Part shown: positions 1,489 through 15,306 of the stretch, in pieces
Layout of the letters: every line of letters starts with the position of its first letter
Numbering within the stretch: the stretch's first letter is position 1
NCBI GenBank assembly: GCA_026710565.1
Contig: JAPOQV010000566.1
Coordinates: 1-23,096, forward strand
Length of the DNA stretch: 23,096 nt
Source of the DNA: Spirochaetaceae bacterium
GTDB lineage: Bacteria > Spirochaetota > Spirochaetia > SZUA-6 > Bin103
Direction of reading: 5' to 3'
Position numbers and translations under genes: made by a program
The notes under the pieces: model-generated
Databases searched by the model: none
Seen by the model: only the letters and a program-made list of their open reading frames with translations
What the model was told of the DNA's origin: nothing

Positions 1489-2469
1489 ATGGCCACCACC
1501 GAATCACCCATCGCCGGCCGCGATTGGAGCATGCCGGGCCCGTATCCGGACCCGGCGGTCGATGTGCTCGATCCCCGCTTCGCCGCCATGAAGCTCAACA
1601 ACGCCGCCGTCGAGCGGCTGTTCACCGGCGCGCGCTGGGCCGAGGGGCCGGTCTGGTTCGGGGACCACGGCTGCCTGCTGTTCAGCGACATCCCCAACAA
1701 CCGGATCCTGCGCTACGACGCGGCCGCCGGAGGCATGAGCGAGTTCCGCCGCCCGTCCAACAACACGAACGGGCACTACCGCGACGCGCAGGGCCGGCTG
1801 CTGTCCTGCGAGCATGACACCCGCCGCGTGACCCGCACCGAGCACGACGGCACGGTCACCGTGCTGATGGACCGCTTCGACGGCAAGCCGCTGAACGCCC
1901 CCAACGACCTCTGCACCCATCCGGACGGGTCGATCTGGTTCACCGATCCCGGCTACGGGACGCTGTACCAGTACGAGGGCCACTGGGCCGACCACGAGCT
2001 GCCGGCCCGCGTCTACCGCCTCGACCCCGAGACCGGGCGCGCGACGGTGGCGGTGGACGACATGGTGATGCCAAACGGCCTGTGTTTCGCCCCCGATCAC
2101 ACCCGCCTGTACGTGGTGGAGACCGGCGTCTCCCATCACGCCGGCTGTCCGCGCGTGATCTATGCCTACGACATGGAGGGCGGCCGGCCGCGGCGGCAGC
2201 GGGTGTTTGCCGACATGCAGCCGGGCAGCTCCGACGGGGTGCGCACCGACATCCACGGCAACCTGTGGGCAGCCGCGGGCTGGGCCGGCCCCGGCTACGA
2301 CGGCGTGCGCTGCTTCTCGCCGGAAGGCGAGCCGATCGGCCGCATCCACCTGCCGGAACCGTGCGCCAACCTGTGCTTCGGCGGCGCGAAGAAGAACCGC
2401 CTGTTCATGACCGCCAGCCAGTCCCTGTACGCCGTCTACCTGGAAACCGTCGGGGCGCAGACCCCGTAG
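1489..2469 (+). CDS. SMP-30/gluconolactonase/LRE-family sugar lactonase
   Basis: A 326-residue six-bladed beta-propeller enzyme. The four divalent-metal ligands known from SMP-30/regucalcin can be placed: Glu52 (RWAEGPVW), Asn139 (NAPND), Asn196 (MPNG) and Asp249 (SSDG). Blade repeats such as DGSIWFTDPGYG and HGNLWAAAGW are clear. It hydrolyses aldonolactones to aldonic acids. There is no signal peptide, and the first 40 residues form a polar extension before the first blade. It follows the mutarotase after 7 bases. In an oxidative aldose pathway it would act on the lactone made by the sugar dehydrogenase (either the upstream Gfo/Idh enzyme or the aldo/keto reductase at 4645). The exact lactone is inference. 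Base composition falls sharply just past the stop. Confidence 0.9.
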   Translation: MATTESPIAGRDWSMPGPYPDPAVDVLDPRFAAMKLNNAAVERLFTGARWAEGPVWFGDHGCLLFSDIPNNRILRYDAAAGGMSEFRRPSNNTNGHYRDAQGRLLSCEHDTRRVTRTEHDGTVTVLMDRFDGKPLNAPNDLCTHPDGSIWFTDPGYGTLYQYEGHWADHELPARVYRLDPETGRATVAVDDMVMPNGLCFAPDHTRLYVVETGVSHHAGCPRVIYAYDMEGGRPRRQRVFADMQPGSSDGVRTDIHGNLWAAAGWAGPGYDGVRCFSPEGEPIGRIHLPEPCANLCFGGAKKNRLFMTASQSLYAVYLETVGAQTP

Positions 2470-2541
2470 CCGTATCTTGAGATTCTGTGCAATGTCGGCA
2501 AAAGCGGATGCGGTGTATGATTTCGATTCGCGAGGCAATGA

Positions 2542-3111
2542 TTGAATTCAGTTACTCATAGGGGACATTCCTACGATCTCGTTCCGGAGACGTTCTACCA
2601 CCTGCCTCCTCACCAATGGTTTTCCTATCTGAATGATTCCGCTAATCTTGGCGAAGGAATAGTGCTTTCGAAGTCGGCATTCGAGCGGGTAGAGCTTCCG
2701 AGCACAGATACTCCATACTTTCTTCATCAAGGAGGCACATGGAAAGAACGATTGTGGGAAGAGATACGGATAACAGGATTTTGTCACCTGCCCGCACGTT
2801 CGAGAGCTCTGTTCCTATTTGAGGATTATGCTACAGCGAAAAAGGTTAGCGACGAATGGTTCAAGGATGAGCAAAGGCACATTTTGCCGGTTCGTGTCTT
2901 GAGCGGACCATACGCGTTGATCCACAGAGCTGATTCCGAGTGGCTCAAGACAGAGGAACGTCAATGGGGCTCATCTGCCCGTAACTACTGGATAGGTGAC
3001 AAGACCCATCATCCGGTTATGGAGGTTGTTGTGCAAGGGTGGGTTTACTTTCCGGAATGGAACGCACCGCCCTTCTATGCCATGCCCGAACCGCGGAAGA
3101 TCTTTCAGTAA
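2542..3111 (+). CDS. DUF2441/ADP-ribosyltransferase-like fold protein, low GC (tentative)
   Basis: A 189-residue ORF at roughly 49% GC amid 70% GC DNA, with different codon use, so it is probably horizontally acquired. The start is TTG: the codon just before it is an in-frame stop, no internal ATG occurs before residue 160, and GAGG stands 6 bases upstream. A TATGAT hexamer at 2516-2521 could be a -10 box but has no good -35. FYHLPP (18-23), PARSRALFLFEDYATAKK (84-101), PYALIHRADSEWL (123-135) and MEVVVQGWVYF (160-170) resemble the ordered blocks of DUF2441/RES-like ART folds: an aromatic/His start, an SR..lF segment, then Glu before a terminal strand. If so, it may modify a host or phage target, possibly as a toxin. 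That is inference; no antitoxin gene is evident. The frame stays open for 46 codons after the TAA. Confidence 0.45.
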   Translation: MNSVTHRGHSYDLVPETFYHLPPHQWFSYLNDSANLGEGIVLSKSAFERVELPSTDTPYFLHQGGTWKERLWEEIRITGFCHLPARSRALFLFEDYATAKKVSDEWFKDEQRHILPVRVLSGPYALIHRADSEWLKTEERQWGSSARNYWIGDKTHHPVMEVVVQGWVYFPEWNAPPFYAMPEPRKIFQ

Positions 3112-3252
3112 TGCACAATACTCAGCGAGGGTCTTACTGATGACGCGGAGACTAAGACCGACCTGCTCTTTGCATACGAAGACGTTATGAGATCATTGGG
3201 AGGCTCCTCTCCCTCCGCGAAACCACCTGTCAGGGCGACCCTCTGCCGATGA
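3112..3252 (+). other. In-frame open continuation after the 2542-3111 stop codon
   Basis: After the TAA at 3109-3111 the same frame stays open for 46 codons, reading in part LTDDAETKTDLLFAYEDV, and ends in TGA at 3250-3252. That TGA overlaps the ATG of the SGNH hydrolase gene (ATGA). The acidic/hydrophobic pattern looks protein-like up to about 3200, where composition changes back to high GC. Possible readings are a short separate coupling ORF without a good start, a decayed C-terminus, or chance. No start codon with a convincing ribosome site is visible. Confidence 0.3.
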
Positions 3253-4010
3253 GACTTGCACCGTCCGAGCGGGATCCGACCGATCGGCACCCCGAGCCGT
3301 TCCGCGTGCTGGTGACGCTGGGCGAGAGCACCACGGCCGGCGGCTGGAGCTCAACCAGGGAGCGTTGCTGGGCCTCCGTCCTGGCCGCGTTGATCAGCGA
3401 CCTCCAGGACGAGCCGGTGACGCTGATCAACGCCGGCATCGGCGCCAACGTGATCTCCGACCGGGTCCCCGTCTATCCCCACTCCGGCAAGCCGGCCGCC
3501 AGCGAGCGGATCGGCAAGCACGTGATCGCCCACGCGCCCGACCTGCTGGTGGTTTCCTACGGCCTCAACGACGCGCGCGGCGGCACGCCGGCGGAGCTGT
3601 TCCGCGCCGAGCTGCGGTCGCTGATCGCCGCGGTCAGGCAGGGCTGCGACCCGCTCATCGTCCTGCTCGGCCCCTACTTCATGACCGCGTTTCGCGGCCA
3701 CGCCCACTTCGACCACGCGGACCTGCAGGTGTTCGAGTGCTTCAACCTGGTCACGGAACAGGTCGCGCGCGAGACCGGCTGCCTGTTCTGCGACGTCCTG
3801 CACGCCTACGGCGGATCGCCCTGGATGGTCCATGACGACGGCGTGCACGCCAACGACCTCGGCCACCGGCTGGTCGCCCACCGGGTCTTCGAGACCTTGG
3901 CGCAGCACTGCTCCGGCCTGGCGGTTCGCACCAAGCGCCTGGAGCGCGAGAGCGAGCGCTGGCGGGACGAGTCGACGCTCAGGGCGGACTACGGGTACGG
4001 ACCTGGTTGA
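3249..4010 (+). CDS. SGNH/GDSL-family hydrolase (esterase/lipase-like)
   Basis: A 253-residue protein with all SGNH blocks. Block I is VLVTLGESTTAGG (Ser27; GES replaces GDS). Block II is NAGIGANV with the oxyanion glycine. Block III is SYGLNDAR (Asn107). Block V is DDGVHAND (Asp197 and His200). The family deacylates sugars, lipids and cell-wall polymers. There is no signal peptide, so a cytoplasmic substrate such as an acetylated sugar is likelier than a secreted role. The ATG is the first start after the open stretch at 3112-3252 and overlaps its stop as ATGA. The C-terminal 30 residues (KRLERESERWRDES) are charged and helical. The gene has returned to high GC, so the left composition boundary of the low-GC block lies at about 3200. 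Confidence 0.85.
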   Translation: MRLAPSERDPTDRHPEPFRVLVTLGESTTAGGWSSTRERCWASVLAALISDLQDEPVTLINAGIGANVISDRVPVYPHSGKPAASERIGKHVIAHAPDLLVVSYGLNDARGGTPAELFRAELRSLIAAVRQGCDPLIVLLGPYFMTAFRGHAHFDHADLQVFECFNLVTEQVARETGCLFCDVLHAYGGSPWMVHDDGVHANDLGHRLVAHRVFETLAQHCSGLAVRTKRLERESERWRDESTLRADYGYGPG

Positions 4011-10411: not shown

Positions 10412-10440
10412 TTGAAAAAGAAACGAACGCTTTCCAAGAT
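10412..10440 (+). promoter_or_regulatory. Candidate fic promoter
   Basis: TTGAAA (10412-10417), 17-base spacer, CAAGAT (10435-10440). The -10 matches consensus in 3 of 6 positions. A start point near 10447 would leave a leader of about 20 bases before the preferred ATG at 10469. Confidence 0.35.
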
Positions 10441-10468
10441 GCGGGCAGAGGAAGGAGCGTTCCGAACG

Positions 10469-11626
10469 ATGCCTCGCCAGACCGGTCGCTACCGCATCAC
10501 CAGCACCCTTGAGGAGCAGGTCCGGGCGTTCGTCCCGTATCCGCTGCCCCCGACGGATCCCCCGCTGGCCATGGATGCAGCGGCCGCACAGCTCCACGCC
10601 GACGCGCTGGCCGCTCTCTCCCGCCTCGCGGTGGCGGGTGCCATGGTGCCGGATACCGACTGGTTCCTCTACGGGTTCGTCCGCAAGGAGGCGGTGATCA
10701 CCTCGCAGATCGAGGGGACGCAGGCGACGCTGCCCGACATCGTCACCTACGAAGCGACCGATCGCGCAGAACGCCCCGAGGATGTCAAGGAGGTCTGCAA
10801 CTACGTGGATGCCCTCGCGCATGCGCGCCGGCGGCTTGCGGATCCGAGCGGGCTGCCGCTCAGCGTGCGCCTGCTGCGCGACGCGCACCGGATTCTCATG
10901 AGCGGCGCCCGCGGTGCGGACAAGCTGCCCGGTGAATTGCGCCGCTCGCAGAATTGGATCGGTGGCAGCCGGCCGGGCAACGCCCGCTTCGTCCCCCCGC
11001 CGCCCGAGGATGTCCCGGACACGCTGTCGGTGCTGGAGCGATGGTGGCATGCCGAGTGCGACCTGCCGCCGCTGGTGCGGGCCGGCCTCGCGCACGTGCA
11101 GTTCGAGACCATCCACCCGTTCCTGGACGGCAACGGCCGCATCGGCCGGCTGCTGATCGCGCTGCTCATCGAGCACTGGGGGCTGCTCGACCAGCCGCTG
11201 CTGTACCTCAGCGTGGCGTTCCGGCGGGCGCAACCGGAGTACTACGCGCGGCTGGGGGCGGTCCGCACCGACGGCGACTGGGAGGGCTGGACCCGGTTCT
11301 TCCTGGAATGCGTGCGTGAGGCTGCCCACGACGGCGTGCGCGTTGCCCGCGAGCTCCACGCCATCGTCGGACGCGACCGCGGCCGTCTCCTGTCCCACGA
11401 CCGATCGTCCGTTGCCGCCGTTCGGTTGCTCGAACACCTGCCCTCCAACCCGGTCGTCACCGTTCCCCGGGCAGCCGGCCTGCTGCGCCTGACAGCCCCG
11501 CCGGCCCGCAAGGCGATCGAACTGCTGGAGAGCCTGGGCGTGCTGCGCGAGATCAGCGGCAAGCGCCGCGGTCGCGCCTACGCCTACCACGGGTACCTGA
11601 AAGCCCTGATCGGCCCGGATGGGTGA
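10469..11626 (+). CDS. Fic-domain AMP-transferase, class II (N-terminal inhibitory motif) with C-terminal winged helix
   Basis: A 385-residue protein. The catalytic Fic motif HPFLDGNGRIGR spans residues 216-227 and is complete: His216, Asp220, Asn222, Arg224, Arg227. The inhibitory helix motif [ST]xxxE[GN] appears as TSQIEG (78-83), with Glu82 placed to block ATP, so the enzyme should be auto-inhibited (class II). The C-terminal 90 residues contain a winged-helix-like segment (PARKAIELLESLGVLREISG). Such proteins AMPylate protein targets and act in stress responses, sometimes as toxins. Earlier in-frame starts (TTG 10412, ATG 10439) exist. ATG 10469 is preferred because homologues start with a short GRY-x-T-x-T leader. 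It converges on the TIGR04255 cassette with 45 bases between the stops. Confidence 0.93.
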   Translation: MPRQTGRYRITSTLEEQVRAFVPYPLPPTDPPLAMDAAAAQLHADALAALSRLAVAGAMVPDTDWFLYGFVRKEAVITSQIEGTQATLPDIVTYEATDRAERPEDVKEVCNYVDALAHARRRLADPSGLPLSVRLLRDAHRILMSGARGADKLPGELRRSQNWIGGSRPGNARFVPPPPEDVPDTLSVLERWWHAECDLPPLVRAGLAHVQFETIHPFLDGNGRIGRLLIALLIEHWGLLDQPLLYLSVAFRRAQPEYYARLGAVRTDGDWEGWTRFFLECVREAAHDGVRVARELHAIVGRDRGRLLSHDRSSVAAVRLLEHLPSNPVVTVPRAAGLLRLTAPPARKAIELLESLGVLREISGKRRGRAYAYHGYLKALIGPDG

Positions 11627-11671
11627 TGCGGTGTATACGGTCACGAGAGTGCACCGGTCGCTTCCCGACCC

Positions 11672-12211
11672 TCACTTGAACGGTGGGATGTCCACTGGCA
11701 AGCCAACCCTCATGAAGTAGCGAGCAAACGCTTGGGAGAGGTGTTCCCGATAGGGCGGAAGGAGGCGAATACGACGAGCGGAGGCGGCGTGTCTTCGAAC
11801 AAAGTCGATCGGAAGCGGATAGATGCGTCGAAAGTCGACTATCCTAACTTCCCGCGCAGCCGTGGGCAGATTGCACTCGGAAAGGACGTGGTATGCCGGG
11901 AGATTACCTCGGCGGGCGTCTTCCCATCCTCGCGGAGTCGAGAGATGGCCCTCGGTACACTCCGACCTTCGCCACAGAGCACAGAGAAGGACCTCAGTGA
12001 GCTTGTTTCGACCCTTGACCAAGTCACAGCTTTGCGACATTACGATGACGTCGCGCTCCGTGTATCCGAACGTCGCATGTTCTGCTCGGCTATCGTCCGC
12101 AAGGTCGGCGGGAGGCGAAAAGACCCGACATGACTCCAGGATGTCACCTTGCTCCAGGTCATCTCCTTCCGCGAGGGAGTACCAAGGGTATTGTTGTTCA
12201 GCAGCGATCAT
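11672..12211 (-). CDS. Unknown 179-residue protein, third gene of the TIGR04255 cassette; possible PemK/MazF-like core
   Basis: The start is an ATG 13 bases after the preceding gene's stop, with no clear ribosome site, so translation is probably coupled. GC is about 53-55%. The N-terminal half reads LEQGDILESCRVFSPP, later RDVIVMSQSCDLVKGR, then TEVLLC. A GDI strand, a VIVMSQSxDL strand and a VLLCxV strand in this order recall the SH3-like barrel of PemK/MazF (RGDIxxv...rPvlVvSnd...vxvaPi), with Cys-rich variants. This is inference by eye. The C-terminus (YREHLSQAFARYFMRVGLPVDIPPF) is strikingly ordered and I believe it recurs in unnamed bacterial proteins. There is no signal peptide or membrane helix. 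It may be the effector or the partner of the TIGR04255 protein; the function is not known. Confidence 0.75.
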   Translation of the reverse strand: MIAAEQQYPWYSLAEGDDLEQGDILESCRVFSPPADLADDSRAEHATFGYTERDVIVMSQSCDLVKGRNKLTEVLLCALWRRSECTEGHLSTPRGWEDARRGNLPAYHVLSECNLPTAAREVRIVDFRRIYPLPIDFVRRHAASARRIRLLPPYREHLSQAFARYFMRVGLPVDIPPFK

Positions 12212-12224
12212 CGACAACGTGCGT

Positions 12225-12671
12225 TCAGGTCGCCCACGGATCCTCTTCCGGAAGTGGCTTGTCGCGGCCTGCGAACTGCAGTGTGACCGTAATCGTTCCT
12301 TTAGGCCGCTTTGGTTCAGCTTCGATCGCGAAGTCCCAATCCAGTACCTGCTCCAGTTCCTCAGACGTGGGTTGGTTGAGGCTTGCGAGGAAAACCTTCC
12401 ACTGAGTCGCCAAGTAAGGTTCATCCTCGGGCGAGTAGATGCGCGCATCGTCGATCCAGTCCGACACCGTGAGTCTGGAAGAACTCCCAAAATCGCGCCA
12501 GATTGCTGCCGCCCTCGCGGCTAACCACCTCAATATGGCGCCGTCGCCGAGAACCGGATCGGATCTAGGCTGATATTGAACGCCGGTGGAGGCGACAGGA
12601 CCGTGGAAATGCGAACGTGCGTGAGCAAATTCAGGAACAGTGGTAGCAACCTGGGCTTCTGCGGCAATCAT
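12225..12671 (-). CDS. Unknown 148-residue protein, second gene of the TIGR04255 cassette
   Basis: The ATG overlaps the stop of the TIGR04255 gene as ATGA (12668-12671), a classic coupling arrangement. An upstream TTG at 12686 is less likely. The N-terminus is polar and probably disordered up to about residue 40. A helical Ala/Trp-rich segment follows (ILRWLAARAAAIWRDF), then a mixed segment (WIDDARIYSPEDEPYLATQWKVFLASLNQPTSEELEQVL). Near the C-terminus is a short strand (GTITVTLQFAGRDKPLP). It is acidic overall. There is no catalytic motif, signal or membrane segment. Size and position suggest a regulator or antitoxin-like partner, but nothing in the sequence proves it. Confidence 0.7.
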   Translation of the reverse strand: MIAAEAQVATTVPEFAHARSHFHGPVASTGVQYQPRSDPVLGDGAILRWLAARAAAIWRDFGSSSRLTVSDWIDDARIYSPEDEPYLATQWKVFLASLNQPTSEELEQVLDWDFAIEAEPKRPKGTITVTLQFAGRDKPLPEEDPWAT

Positions 12672-13516
12672 TTGGATCTCCCCCAAGTGTCATGTTGCAC
12701 TCGTTCGTTAGTCAAGTCGACGAACCCTTTGACGATCCAATGGCGAGCAGTATCGAACCATGTCCACATGGCTTCGTGAGAGTCGCTCGGAGGCATGCCT
12801 CGTGCGGAAAGCTCACAGATCATGAGGTGTTTCTGGTCGTAAGCGCGCGTTCCGCTGCGGATGGTGACGTGCAGGCGCGCCGTCCGATCAGGAAGGTCGA
12901 AGCTCAGTTGGAGGTTGGTCCCGGATGGTGGCGGGAGAAATTGCTTGTGACGGGTATTCCAGCGGAAATCAGGAAACACGCTGCCGATGTCTTCAAGCCC
13001 GCCCCATCCCTCACCTTCCGGGATGTGGTTGACGTAAGTCATCTCATATTGAACTGGGTTGATATCGCCCAGGTCGTGCTCGTCAACAAAGCGTGAGAAG
13101 GTGGCATAGTGCGCGTGGAACATGCGCTTTAGTTGGTGATAGCGAGGGTATTGGTGGTCCGGGTGTGTTCGTTTCCAATTGTGAAGGAAACGGTCCCGTT
13201 GGACTTGGACGATACCGGTTCCGTCGCGGTGAACGAACCACACGCGGGGCAATAGGGGGTCGGGAAGCGTGGGCGGCTCGGCTGGCCCGCGAGAGTCGAA
13301 CCGTTCGATCGCGGGAAACAACGGACTCGTGTCCTGGGAGATGTCGTAGCCGCTGGTCTTGAAGGGCTCCCAGAGCTGGCCGAAATGAGCGACGGTGAAT
13401 CGGGTCACGGGTTTGAACTGGATCCCGAAGACAACTTCGGTAAGCGGCGGACTGGCAAATGTGAACAGAGGTTCGTCCTCGGGGTACACCCCTTCGTAAC
13501 TCACGGGGGAGATCAC
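12668..13516 (-). CDS. TIGR04255-family protein (function unknown)
   Basis: A 282-residue protein with the family's recurring blocks: PPLTEVVFGIQF (23-34), GIVQVQRDRFLHNWKR (101-116), YEMTYVNHI (157-165) and the C-terminal HWIVKGFVDLTNERVQHDTWG (259-279). TIGR04255 proteins are scattered sporadically among bacteria and have no known activity; I recognise the family from memory. The GTG start overlaps the stop of the upstream alpha/alpha-barrel gene as GTGA (13513-13516). A GTG at 13504 is an alternative, and neither has a strong ribosome site. GC drops from about 70% to about 55% exactly at this junction, which marks the cassette as foreign to the gene it is coupled to. No membrane or export signals are seen. 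Confidence 0.85.
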   Translation of the reverse strand: MISPVSYEGVYPEDEPLFTFASPPLTEVVFGIQFKPVTRFTVAHFGQLWEPFKTSGYDISQDTSPLFPAIERFDSRGPAEPPTLPDPLLPRVWFVHRDGTGIVQVQRDRFLHNWKRTHPDHQYPRYHQLKRMFHAHYATFSRFVDEHDLGDINPVQYEMTYVNHIPEGEGWGGLEDIGSVFPDFRWNTRHKQFLPPPSGTNLQLSFDLPDRTARLHVTIRSGTRAYDQKHLMICELSARGMPPSDSHEAMWTWFDTARHWIVKGFVDLTNERVQHDTWGRSK

Positions 13517-15306
13517 GTCGGCCAGGGGAAGGCGACCGTCGGCTGGTTGACGAAGCGCCCGACGCGGAGCAGCAACCGCGCGCCGGCGCCCGGCTCCAGG
13601 CGCACGTGCATGGCGTTGTTGCCCACCTCGGTGCGCTCGCCGTCGATGGCGACGCTGTCGATCGTGTGCTCGGCGAAGGCGCCCGACTGCAGGACGAGGT
13701 GCTTCGCGTGCACGGGGTCCAGGTTGACGAGTTGCACCCCCACCTCGTCTGCGCTCATGTGGTCGACCAGCGATGCGACGCCCGGCGGGATGCCGGCACG
13801 CCGCCGTTCGGCGTCGAAGTAGCGCACCGCGCAGTGCCACGGCACGCCCACGTGGCGGGTGGGCAGGCCGCCGAGCATGAGCTGCACCAGGCCCCACACC
13901 TCGGCCGGATTGATGCCGTTCGGGTCCTCGGAGAGCAGCATGTCGGCCGGCCGGGTGTCCTGCTCGCGCTTGGCCACCTTTTGGCGCACCTGCTCCAGGT
14001 CGGCCTGCAGCTTCTCCACCGGATAGTCGTCGTTGCCGCCATCCAGGAACCGCACCCAGGGGTCGGCGGCCACCAGCGCATGGTCGCGCTCGCGGTCCTG
14101 AGACCAGACGTAGACCTCCAGCGCGCCGCGGTCGAATGGCTCCGGCTGGAAGTCGTACCAGCCGTCCTCGTTGTACATGCGCGGATAGAGGGTCACGCCG
14201 TCCTCGGTCTTGCCGTGCCTGTTGACCGACTCCATGACGGTGCGCCAGACGTCCACGTACTTGCGGTCGCCTGACACCAGCAGGGCGTTGCCGAACGCGT
14301 ACGGCGTGCGGTGCTGGAAGTTGGGGCGGTGGTGGGGGATCGGCTTGCCGTGCTCGTCCAGGCCGTAGAAGCCGCCGGTGTGGCCCCAGCCGTACACGCC
14401 GCGCCACCAGGCGCCGCCGTGCAGGCCGCCGCCGACCTTCCCGTCCAGCCCGACGTTGCCGGGAATCAGGCCGTCGTTCGCGTGCGTGCGCTCGATCCAG
14501 GCGTCCGAGTACTCCTCGATCCACTCCTTGTACTTGGGGTCCCCGGTGGCCGCGTAGGCATAGAAGGCCATGGCGGTGGCGGCCAGGTTCAGGGGGATGT
14601 CGCCCTCCACGTCGCGGTAGCTTTCGAAGTGGAACAGGTAGTCGTCGAAGTCGCGGTGGCCGCGCCCCGGCTTGAAGCGCCCCTCGATCTCGAACGGGTC
14701 GCCGGCCCAGTCGACCGGCTCCGCCCTGCCCAGCACCGGACCTCGGCTGCCGTTCAGGACGCTGCGGATGATGCGGTGCTCGGGGTCGTAGTTGGGCTCG
14801 GCCGGCTCGTCGGGGTCGCCCGGCAGGTAGAAGCCGGCGAATCGGCAGATGCGCTGCCGCCAGGTGAGGTTCCACGGCTCGCAGAGCCCCTCCTGGAACA
14901 GGCAGTGGTAGCCCTCGCCGTTGTGCACCCAGTCGAAGGCGGTCGGGAACTCCTTGTAGTACATGCCGTCGGCGCCGAGCTTCGTGACGGTCGTCCTCGC
15001 CTCCGTGTACTGCCGGATGTGGCCCTCCATGCCGCGCCGGTACAGCGCCAGCACCCGCTCGGAGCCGCCCAGCGCGTAGAAGTCCGTCCAGTTGGTCACG
15101 TTCTCGGCGGCGTCGTCCGGGCCGTCCAGCGCCCCCCAGCGCGCGAAGCACTTGAGGTAGCCGCGCTCGTCGAAGTAGCGGTCGAAGAACGGCGGGATCG
15201 CTGCCTCGATCGCGCGCATCAGCTCGCGTTCCAGGAGCGCCCAGTGCGGGGGCGCGGTGGGCGTGGCGATGGTCACGGCGGCGGTCGGCGGGGTTCGGGT
15301 GAGCAT
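13513..15306 (-). CDS. Six-hairpin (alpha/alpha-barrel)-type protein, copy 1
   Basis: A 597-residue cytoplasmic-looking protein of unknown function. Residues about 20-500 alternate helices with conserved acidic/aromatic loops (DGMYYKEFPTAFDW, HNGEGYHCLF, NYDPEHRIIRS, WWRGVYGWGH, LYPRMYNEDGWYDF, FLDGGNDDYP, LSEDPNGINPAEVW). This is the architecture of alpha/alpha-barrel glycosidases, lyases and isomerases. About 80 residues at the C-terminus (VQLVNLD...HVRLEPGAGARL) form a beta-sandwich as in many such enzymes. A close paralogue lies at 20221-22002. AGGAGGA stands 7 bases before the ATG. The C-terminus is about 8 residues shorter than in the paralogue, at the exact border with the lower-GC cassette. 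A carbohydrate enzyme is likely; a dehydratase/isomerase is possible. Confidence 0.8.
   Translation of the reverse strand: MLTRTPPTAAVTIATPTAPPHWALLERELMRAIEAAIPPFFDRYFDERGYLKCFARWGALDGPDDAAENVTNWTDFYALGGSERVLALYRRGMEGHIRQYTEARTTVTKLGADGMYYKEFPTAFDWVHNGEGYHCLFQEGLCEPWNLTWRQRICRFAGFYLPGDPDEPAEPNYDPEHRIIRSVLNGSRGPVLGRAEPVDWAGDPFEIEGRFKPGRGHRDFDDYLFHFESYRDVEGDIPLNLAATAMAFYAYAATGDPKYKEWIEEYSDAWIERTHANDGLIPGNVGLDGKVGGGLHGGAWWRGVYGWGHTGGFYGLDEHGKPIPHHRPNFQHRTPYAFGNALLVSGDRKYVDVWRTVMESVNRHGKTEDGVTLYPRMYNEDGWYDFQPEPFDRGALEVYVWSQDRERDHALVAADPWVRFLDGGNDDYPVEKLQADLEQVRQKVAKREQDTRPADMLLSEDPNGINPAEVWGLVQLMLGGLPTRHVGVPWHCAVRYFDAERRRAGIPPGVASLVDHMSADEVGVQLVNLDPVHAKHLVLQSGAFAEHTIDSVAIDGERTEVGNNAMHVRLEPGAGARLLLRVGRFVNQPTVAFPWPT

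Follow-up and report, generated by a model that had tools for sequence, protein, structure and literature searches.

Within a 23,096-nucleotide stretch of Spirochaetaceae DNA (hereafter the window), three tightly coupled genes stand apart from their neighbours in base composition, and the question they raise is whether they form a functional unit and of what kind. The original prediction took them for a possible toxin-like or phage-defence system. Our analysis indicates that the cassette is one of a widespread and apparently undescribed group of three-gene operons, in which the first gene is shared and the toxin-type genes are many.

Organization and composition of the cassette

All three genes lie on the minus strand. 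Gene A (12668..13516) starts with GTG and encodes a protein of 282 amino acids; gene B (12225..12671) encodes 148 amino acids and is a putative antitoxin or adaptor, and gene C (11672..12211) encodes 179 amino acids and is a putative toxin. The GTG start of A shares the bases GTGA (13513..13516, minus strand) with the stop of an upstream ORF of 597 amino acids (15306-13513), the stop of A and the start of B share ATGA (12668..12671, minus strand), and a gap of 13 bases (12212..12224, minus strand) separates B from C, which confirms the gene lengths and junctions described earlier. No sigma-70-like promoter was found in 11500-14000, and a search for flanking repeats marking an insertion returned short imperfect pairs only.

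The GC content is 57.6% for A, 57.7% for B and 57.8% for C and for the cassette as a whole, between genes of 70% (70.0% in the Fic gene, 70.2% in the 597-amino-acid ORF). The low composition relative to 70% GC DNA that had been reported for the cassette therefore holds, but not the value of about 55%. No stretch of the same size, sampled in steps of 50 bases, has a lower GC than the cassette anywhere in the window, and the GC3 of the cassette genes (0.60-0.68) contrasts with 0.86-0.96 for four genes nearby. At about 2401-3300, the window dips a second time, to 51-53% GC (600-base windows) within DNA of about 70%. Elsewhere, cassettes with A were below their flanks in 34 of the 38 loci having enough flank, with means of 42.7% and 48.4%, respectively. 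Since homologues in the same order occur in other phyla and GC is below that of the flanks in 34/38 loci, we regard the cassette as more than a chance assembly.

A Fic gene on the plus strand (10412-11626), in which Pfam recognizes Fic_N and Fic domains and PADLOC gives a strong SoFic match of 357 bits, had been proposed as part of the unit. It is convergent with the cassette, ending at 11626 where C ends at 11672, and thus belongs to another transcription unit; we do not count it as a component.

Protein A was rightly assigned to TIGR04255: it matches the NCBIfam model at 53 bits (cut-off 30, E 4.2e-14), its residues 20-274 aligning to positions 2-248 of the 252 in the profile. It is predicted from its structural model to be a duplicated alpha/beta protein; the structural matches of the model are weak, and SecB is absent among those listed. 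We found no literature on TIGR04255 in open-licence PMC, a scope that does not prove the family unpublished, and titles and abstract beginnings of the three-gene toxin literature in the same source held nothing on it.

A predicted MazF-like fold with its own conserved residues

The structural model of C matches MazF, with 105 of 106 residues aligned, and its predicted barrel is of the PemK/MazF type (a MazF/CcdB fold). At the sequence level, C (P0003) had no match in Pfam at E up to 1, hence none to PF02452, and PF02452 did not match any of 32 rows of alignment A1 at E up to 0.1; neither B nor C reached a family cut-off in Pfam or NCBIfam. The resemblance to PemK/MazF barrels that had been suspected is therefore borne out for the predicted fold but not for membership of PF02452, and C as a canonical MazF was rejected, the fold agreeing and the sequence model of the family not.

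In the alignment of 80 rows, Q60, C62 and D63 of the QSCD motif (12023..12034, minus strand) are invariant, while C77 is kept in 78 rows and C28 in 73. The C-terminal helix and tail (PYREHLSQAFARYFMRVGLPVDIP, residues 153-176; 11684..11755, minus strand) is likewise conserved, with P153, Y154, E156, Q160, A163, R164, F166, M167, R168, G170, L171 and P172 identical in all 80 rows; few parts of the family are as well conserved as the REHLSQAFARYFMRVGLP stretch. The impression that this C-terminus is too ordered for a neutral hypothetical protein was well founded. The other 79 rows are at least 39% identical to P0003; even for rows found by similarity, this is high for a toxin that occurs across so many phyla.

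These residues bear on whether C could be an ordinary MazF-type mRNA interferase, with A an accessory of no special importance. The match of the predicted fold to MazF speaks for it, as do the PemK/MazF genes that occupy the same place in 4 of the 141 loci surveyed below. Against it stand the missing PF02452 match and the catalytic columns, the MazF pair being R25/T48 in B. subtilis MazF. These columns are placed by a short, weak alignment of 28 columns; the position aligned with the catalytic Arg holds Y in 32, R in 31 and Q in 6 of 80 rows, and that aligned with the Thr holds W in 70 of 80, so that neither is conserved. We consider such an identity for C distinctly unlikely; C probably has its own conserved site, formed by QxCD and the C-terminal helix and tail, rather than that of a standard MazF ribonuclease.

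The cassette shares with MazEF/PemIK (PF02452) the predicted fold of C, the position of the toxin gene after its partner and the PemK genes found in the place of C, yet it differs in the absence of a sequence match, in about 60-70 extra residues, in the residues conserved, in its partners and in having a third gene. It differs from CcdAB in that no sequence relation was detected and in its extra parts and third gene.

Partners and spread of C

Of 4597 candidates, 4534 are relatives of C (E up to 0.001). When each species was represented by one genome, a relative of C was encoded at 298 of 316 pattern matches, and the best 80 of these 298 form our set of C loci, whose titles include Planctomycetes, Acidobacteria, Poribacteria, cyanobacteria, Chloroflexi, methanogens, Asgard archaea and others. 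Genes A, B and C follow in this order in 30 of the best 80, which substantiates the expected co-occurrence of the two partner genes with TIGR04255; in 9 more, A is present without a detected B. A tree of C with 76 rows, in which 35 of 73 inner branches are weak, distributes 20 phylum groups with 32 label changes where 19 are the minimum, and on the best tree the kind of gene at the A position changes at least 14 times. One metagenome-assembled genome titled Klebsiella pneumoniae (L031) also carries C; its C groups with rows from Dormiibacterota and Planctomycetes, and the bin name may therefore be wrong.

The A position is held, among the best 80 of 298, by an A homologue at most 1.7 kb upstream in 39 loci, by a family of about 220 amino acids (A2) in 10 (L010, L014, L021, L024, L025, L026, L032, L033, L034 and L052, in each case before B and C) and by a cyanobacterial family in 2; no such gene was detected in 29. 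Homology of A with A2 or with the cyanobacterial family was rejected at hhalign probabilities of 0.48% and 0.99%, respectively, and the three are accordingly treated as separate families. By eye only, the order of strands in A is similar to that in the other two, with hhalign below 1%.

Gene B codes for a short and variable protein, with only 8 relatives among 120 candidates. A B-like gene lies beside C in 59 of the best 80 of 298 loci, and the ends of the two genes mostly overlap or almost touch. What the B homologues have in common is for the most part a module of some 40 residues at the C-terminus (residues 110-148, LDWDF...PKRPKGTITVTLQFAGRDKPLPEEDPWAT; 12228..12344, minus strand), the N-terminal part being variable, and short homologues hold little else. 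B is at most 100 amino acids long in none of 40 loci with an A-position gene and in 10 of 19 without one (Fisher 1.5e-6, the sequences being related), while it is long in the other 9 of the 19. On the tree of C, supported branches give two independent pairs (on average 0.7 agreeing, none opposing), and with two independent comparisons only, the link with B length cannot reach significance. In one locus (L027), A and a tail that by eye resembles the module of B are joined in a single reading frame of 364 amino acids. We infer that the tail of B would contact C and its front A. Short B and C without A also occur 15-20 nt after related genes in L003, L015, L018 and L019, the preceding gene in L018 having an AMP-binding match that stays below the cut-off.

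C was found on six viral contigs (L118-L123). In five, the cassette is near head, tail, lysis or antirepressor genes, and in the sixth (L118) an integrase is near it. A phage head gene lies about 3 kb upstream of A in L119; L121 has an antirepressor, and a head-morphogenesis match adjoins A. In L120, L122 and L123, endolysin or amidase genes are followed by a cassette with another first gene, a prophage gene that matches phrog_5881 in both cases tested (L120:5038-5484 and L123:5042-5458), with the middle gene and C next. C (P0003) had no match in 50,697 phage and 72,556 plasmid records, nor did the L123 protein or TIGR04255 (L105 protein) match phage records; phage carriage of C is thus rare or too distant to be seen. 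PHROG matches for A, B and C were at chance level only. In PADLOC 2023, A, B and C had no match at E up to 1, and 32 rows of alignment A1 gave one weak match (E 0.039).

Toxin-type genes behind TIGR04255 and a possible mechanism

To see TIGR04255 loci beyond those with C, we surveyed seven phyla, chosen because C had been seen there, and found the family in 139 of 1534 genomes (132 over the family cut-off). The matches listed, at most 30 per search, gave 143 loci, several further matches having none; two (L112 and L209) lack a reading frame for A, which leaves 141 usable loci. Five positive genomes served as search centres, and their loci and all of L081-L088 are excluded from the 141; the overlapping L156 and L157 are two pieces of one broken gene, counted twice and both unclassified. 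Genes were called mechanically, and a gene was taken as coupled if its start lay no more than 70 nt upstream or 120 nt downstream of the previous stop. At least two coupled genes follow A in 125 of the 141 loci, and both downstream gaps are at most 30 nt in 105 of 141, compared with 22 of 142 controls of similar size (Fisher 1.3e-24).

The toxin-type genes among genes 2 to 4 behind A were sorted by iterated HMMs into QxCD C-like (41), W-type of unknown kind (26), HEPN-type (12), PIN (6), PemK/MazF (4), HicA-like (4) and DUF7689 (3), with 45 unclassified; two of the six PIN genes stand in second place and three of the QxCD calls in fourth, and the names HicA-like and HicB-like were given by eye. 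Among 123 third genes of at least 60 amino acids, Pfam recognized PIN in 5, PemK, HEPN and DUF7689 in 3 each and HNH in 1, besides unrelated enzymes, mostly once each; its HEPN matches cover at most 3 of the 12 HEPN-type proteins. Second genes (127 of 129) gave HTH_3 in 8 and PIN in 2. In PADLOC, 25 of the 48 families matched by the 123 third genes were listed; one of these has two members and every other a single one. Upstream of A, 137 stretches contained DNA methylase (4), DDE transposase (3) and Fic_N (2), and no toxin family was among the 25 of 130 families listed, where single matches are possible. TIGR04255 was found in one plasmid record by P0001 and in two by the L105 protein; in three plasmid records annotated by others, two genes on its strand come after it, and in one of these, a Vibrio parahaemolyticus plasmid (L260:158-2105), the first of the two is hypothetical and the last is annotated as a zeta toxin.

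Each toxin-type family keeps to its own middle family, with no crossing (HEPN 12 of 12, HicA-like 4 of 4), and an HTH-type middle gene, present in 25 loci, goes with QxCD in 21 and with unclassified genes in 4. This is the pattern that antitoxin-toxin pairs would produce, and, as in type II toxin-antitoxin systems, a coupled, toxin-specific gene precedes the toxin-type gene. A middle family with a WNGYG motif (29 genes) and a family of third genes also follow TIGR04255 (L088, L096, L100, L106, L107 and others) and are possibly an undescribed toxin pair.

One could suppose that A itself is the direct antitoxin, a promiscuous neutralizer of many toxin folds, and B a minor regulator or stabilizer. 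A is indeed shared while toxin types differ, in loci that were chosen by A, and L108 lacks a middle gene, its PIN gene overlapping the end of A. However, the middle-gene families track the toxin-type families while A stays the same, and 19 loci have B beside C with no detected A-position gene, so that we hold a direct role of A to be unlikely. We hold it to be about as unlikely that the unit is a small signalling, assembly or biosynthetic complex with C as a Cys-dependent enzyme or binding protein. That idea gains from the strong conservation of C and of its Q60, C62, D63, C77 and C28, and from short B and C found behind or near AMP-binding-like and bPH-like genes (both under the Pfam cut-off), VTT/rhodanese and kinase genes, but PIN, HEPN-type, PemK and zeta genes replace C behind A, the spread is patchy and GC is low relative to the flanks.

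We favour, with a little better than even confidence, a modular three-gene toxin system resembling the toxin-antitoxin-chaperone (TAC) systems, in which C is the toxin, B its antitoxin or adaptor and A a shared third component. We base this on gene order, coupling, spread, the predicted fold of C, the change of toxin types and the A/B-like fusion; the 45 unclassified loci of 141 and the short-B and C pairs that follow unrelated genes count against it, as do the high conservation of C, the few independent pairs behind the link with B length, the lack of a middle gene in L108, the weak structural matches of A and the missing C in the phage and plasmid records searched. C would be toxic, and the short C-terminal module of B, acting as a toxin-specific antitoxin or adaptor, would hold and neutralize it, while the variable N-terminal part of B would engage A. 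A could keep B competent, as a holder or sensor, and the withdrawal or alteration of A, through a phage product or stress for instance, would release C, a step that might serve in phage defence. A wider version, in which TIGR04255 is the common sensor or holder of swappable antitoxin-adaptors and toxins (MazF-fold QxCD, PemK, PIN, HEPN, zeta, HNH and unknown ones) in bacteria and archaea, its position in C-type cassettes being replaceable by A2, the cyanobacterial family or phrog_5881, in a TAC-like, anti-phage arrangement, seems to us possible at somewhat less than an even chance.

The chaperone in TAC binds an antitoxin extension that independent antitoxins lack, and the two form a pair that can be transferred from one family to another (PMC5105189). 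In CmdTAC, the toxin is set free when a phage capsid protein captures the chaperone (PMC11618068). TAC, including CmdTAC, is like the cassette in having three genes, one kind of partner protein for several antitoxin families and an antitoxin segment absent from partner-independent antitoxins (PMC5105189 and PMC11618068). It differs in that its partner is a SecB-like chaperone, where A is a protein of 250-280 amino acids for which SecB is not among the matches listed, and in that the natural TAC extension is C-terminal whereas the extra part of B is N-terminal. Three-component variants were foreseen by an older survey (PMC2701414). NetFlax, which maps two-gene toxin-antitoxin systems, describes a comparable mix-and-match of toxins with partner domains; its operons have two genes, and the terms three-gene, tripartite, third gene and TIGR do not occur in the available portion of its main text (PMC10440598).

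The cassette is a real, conserved and apparently undescribed modular system and not an ordinary one. Three-gene TIGR04255 operons would probably escape searches designed for two-gene systems. Gene C provides a candidate MazF-fold toxin with over 4,500 relatives, and the operons may offer a second case, this time without SecB, in which antitoxins are bound up with a third protein. Finally, TIGR04255 is a family with a name but no assigned function, and its place as the gene common to these coupled toxin-type operons offers many hypothetical genes a role that can be tested.
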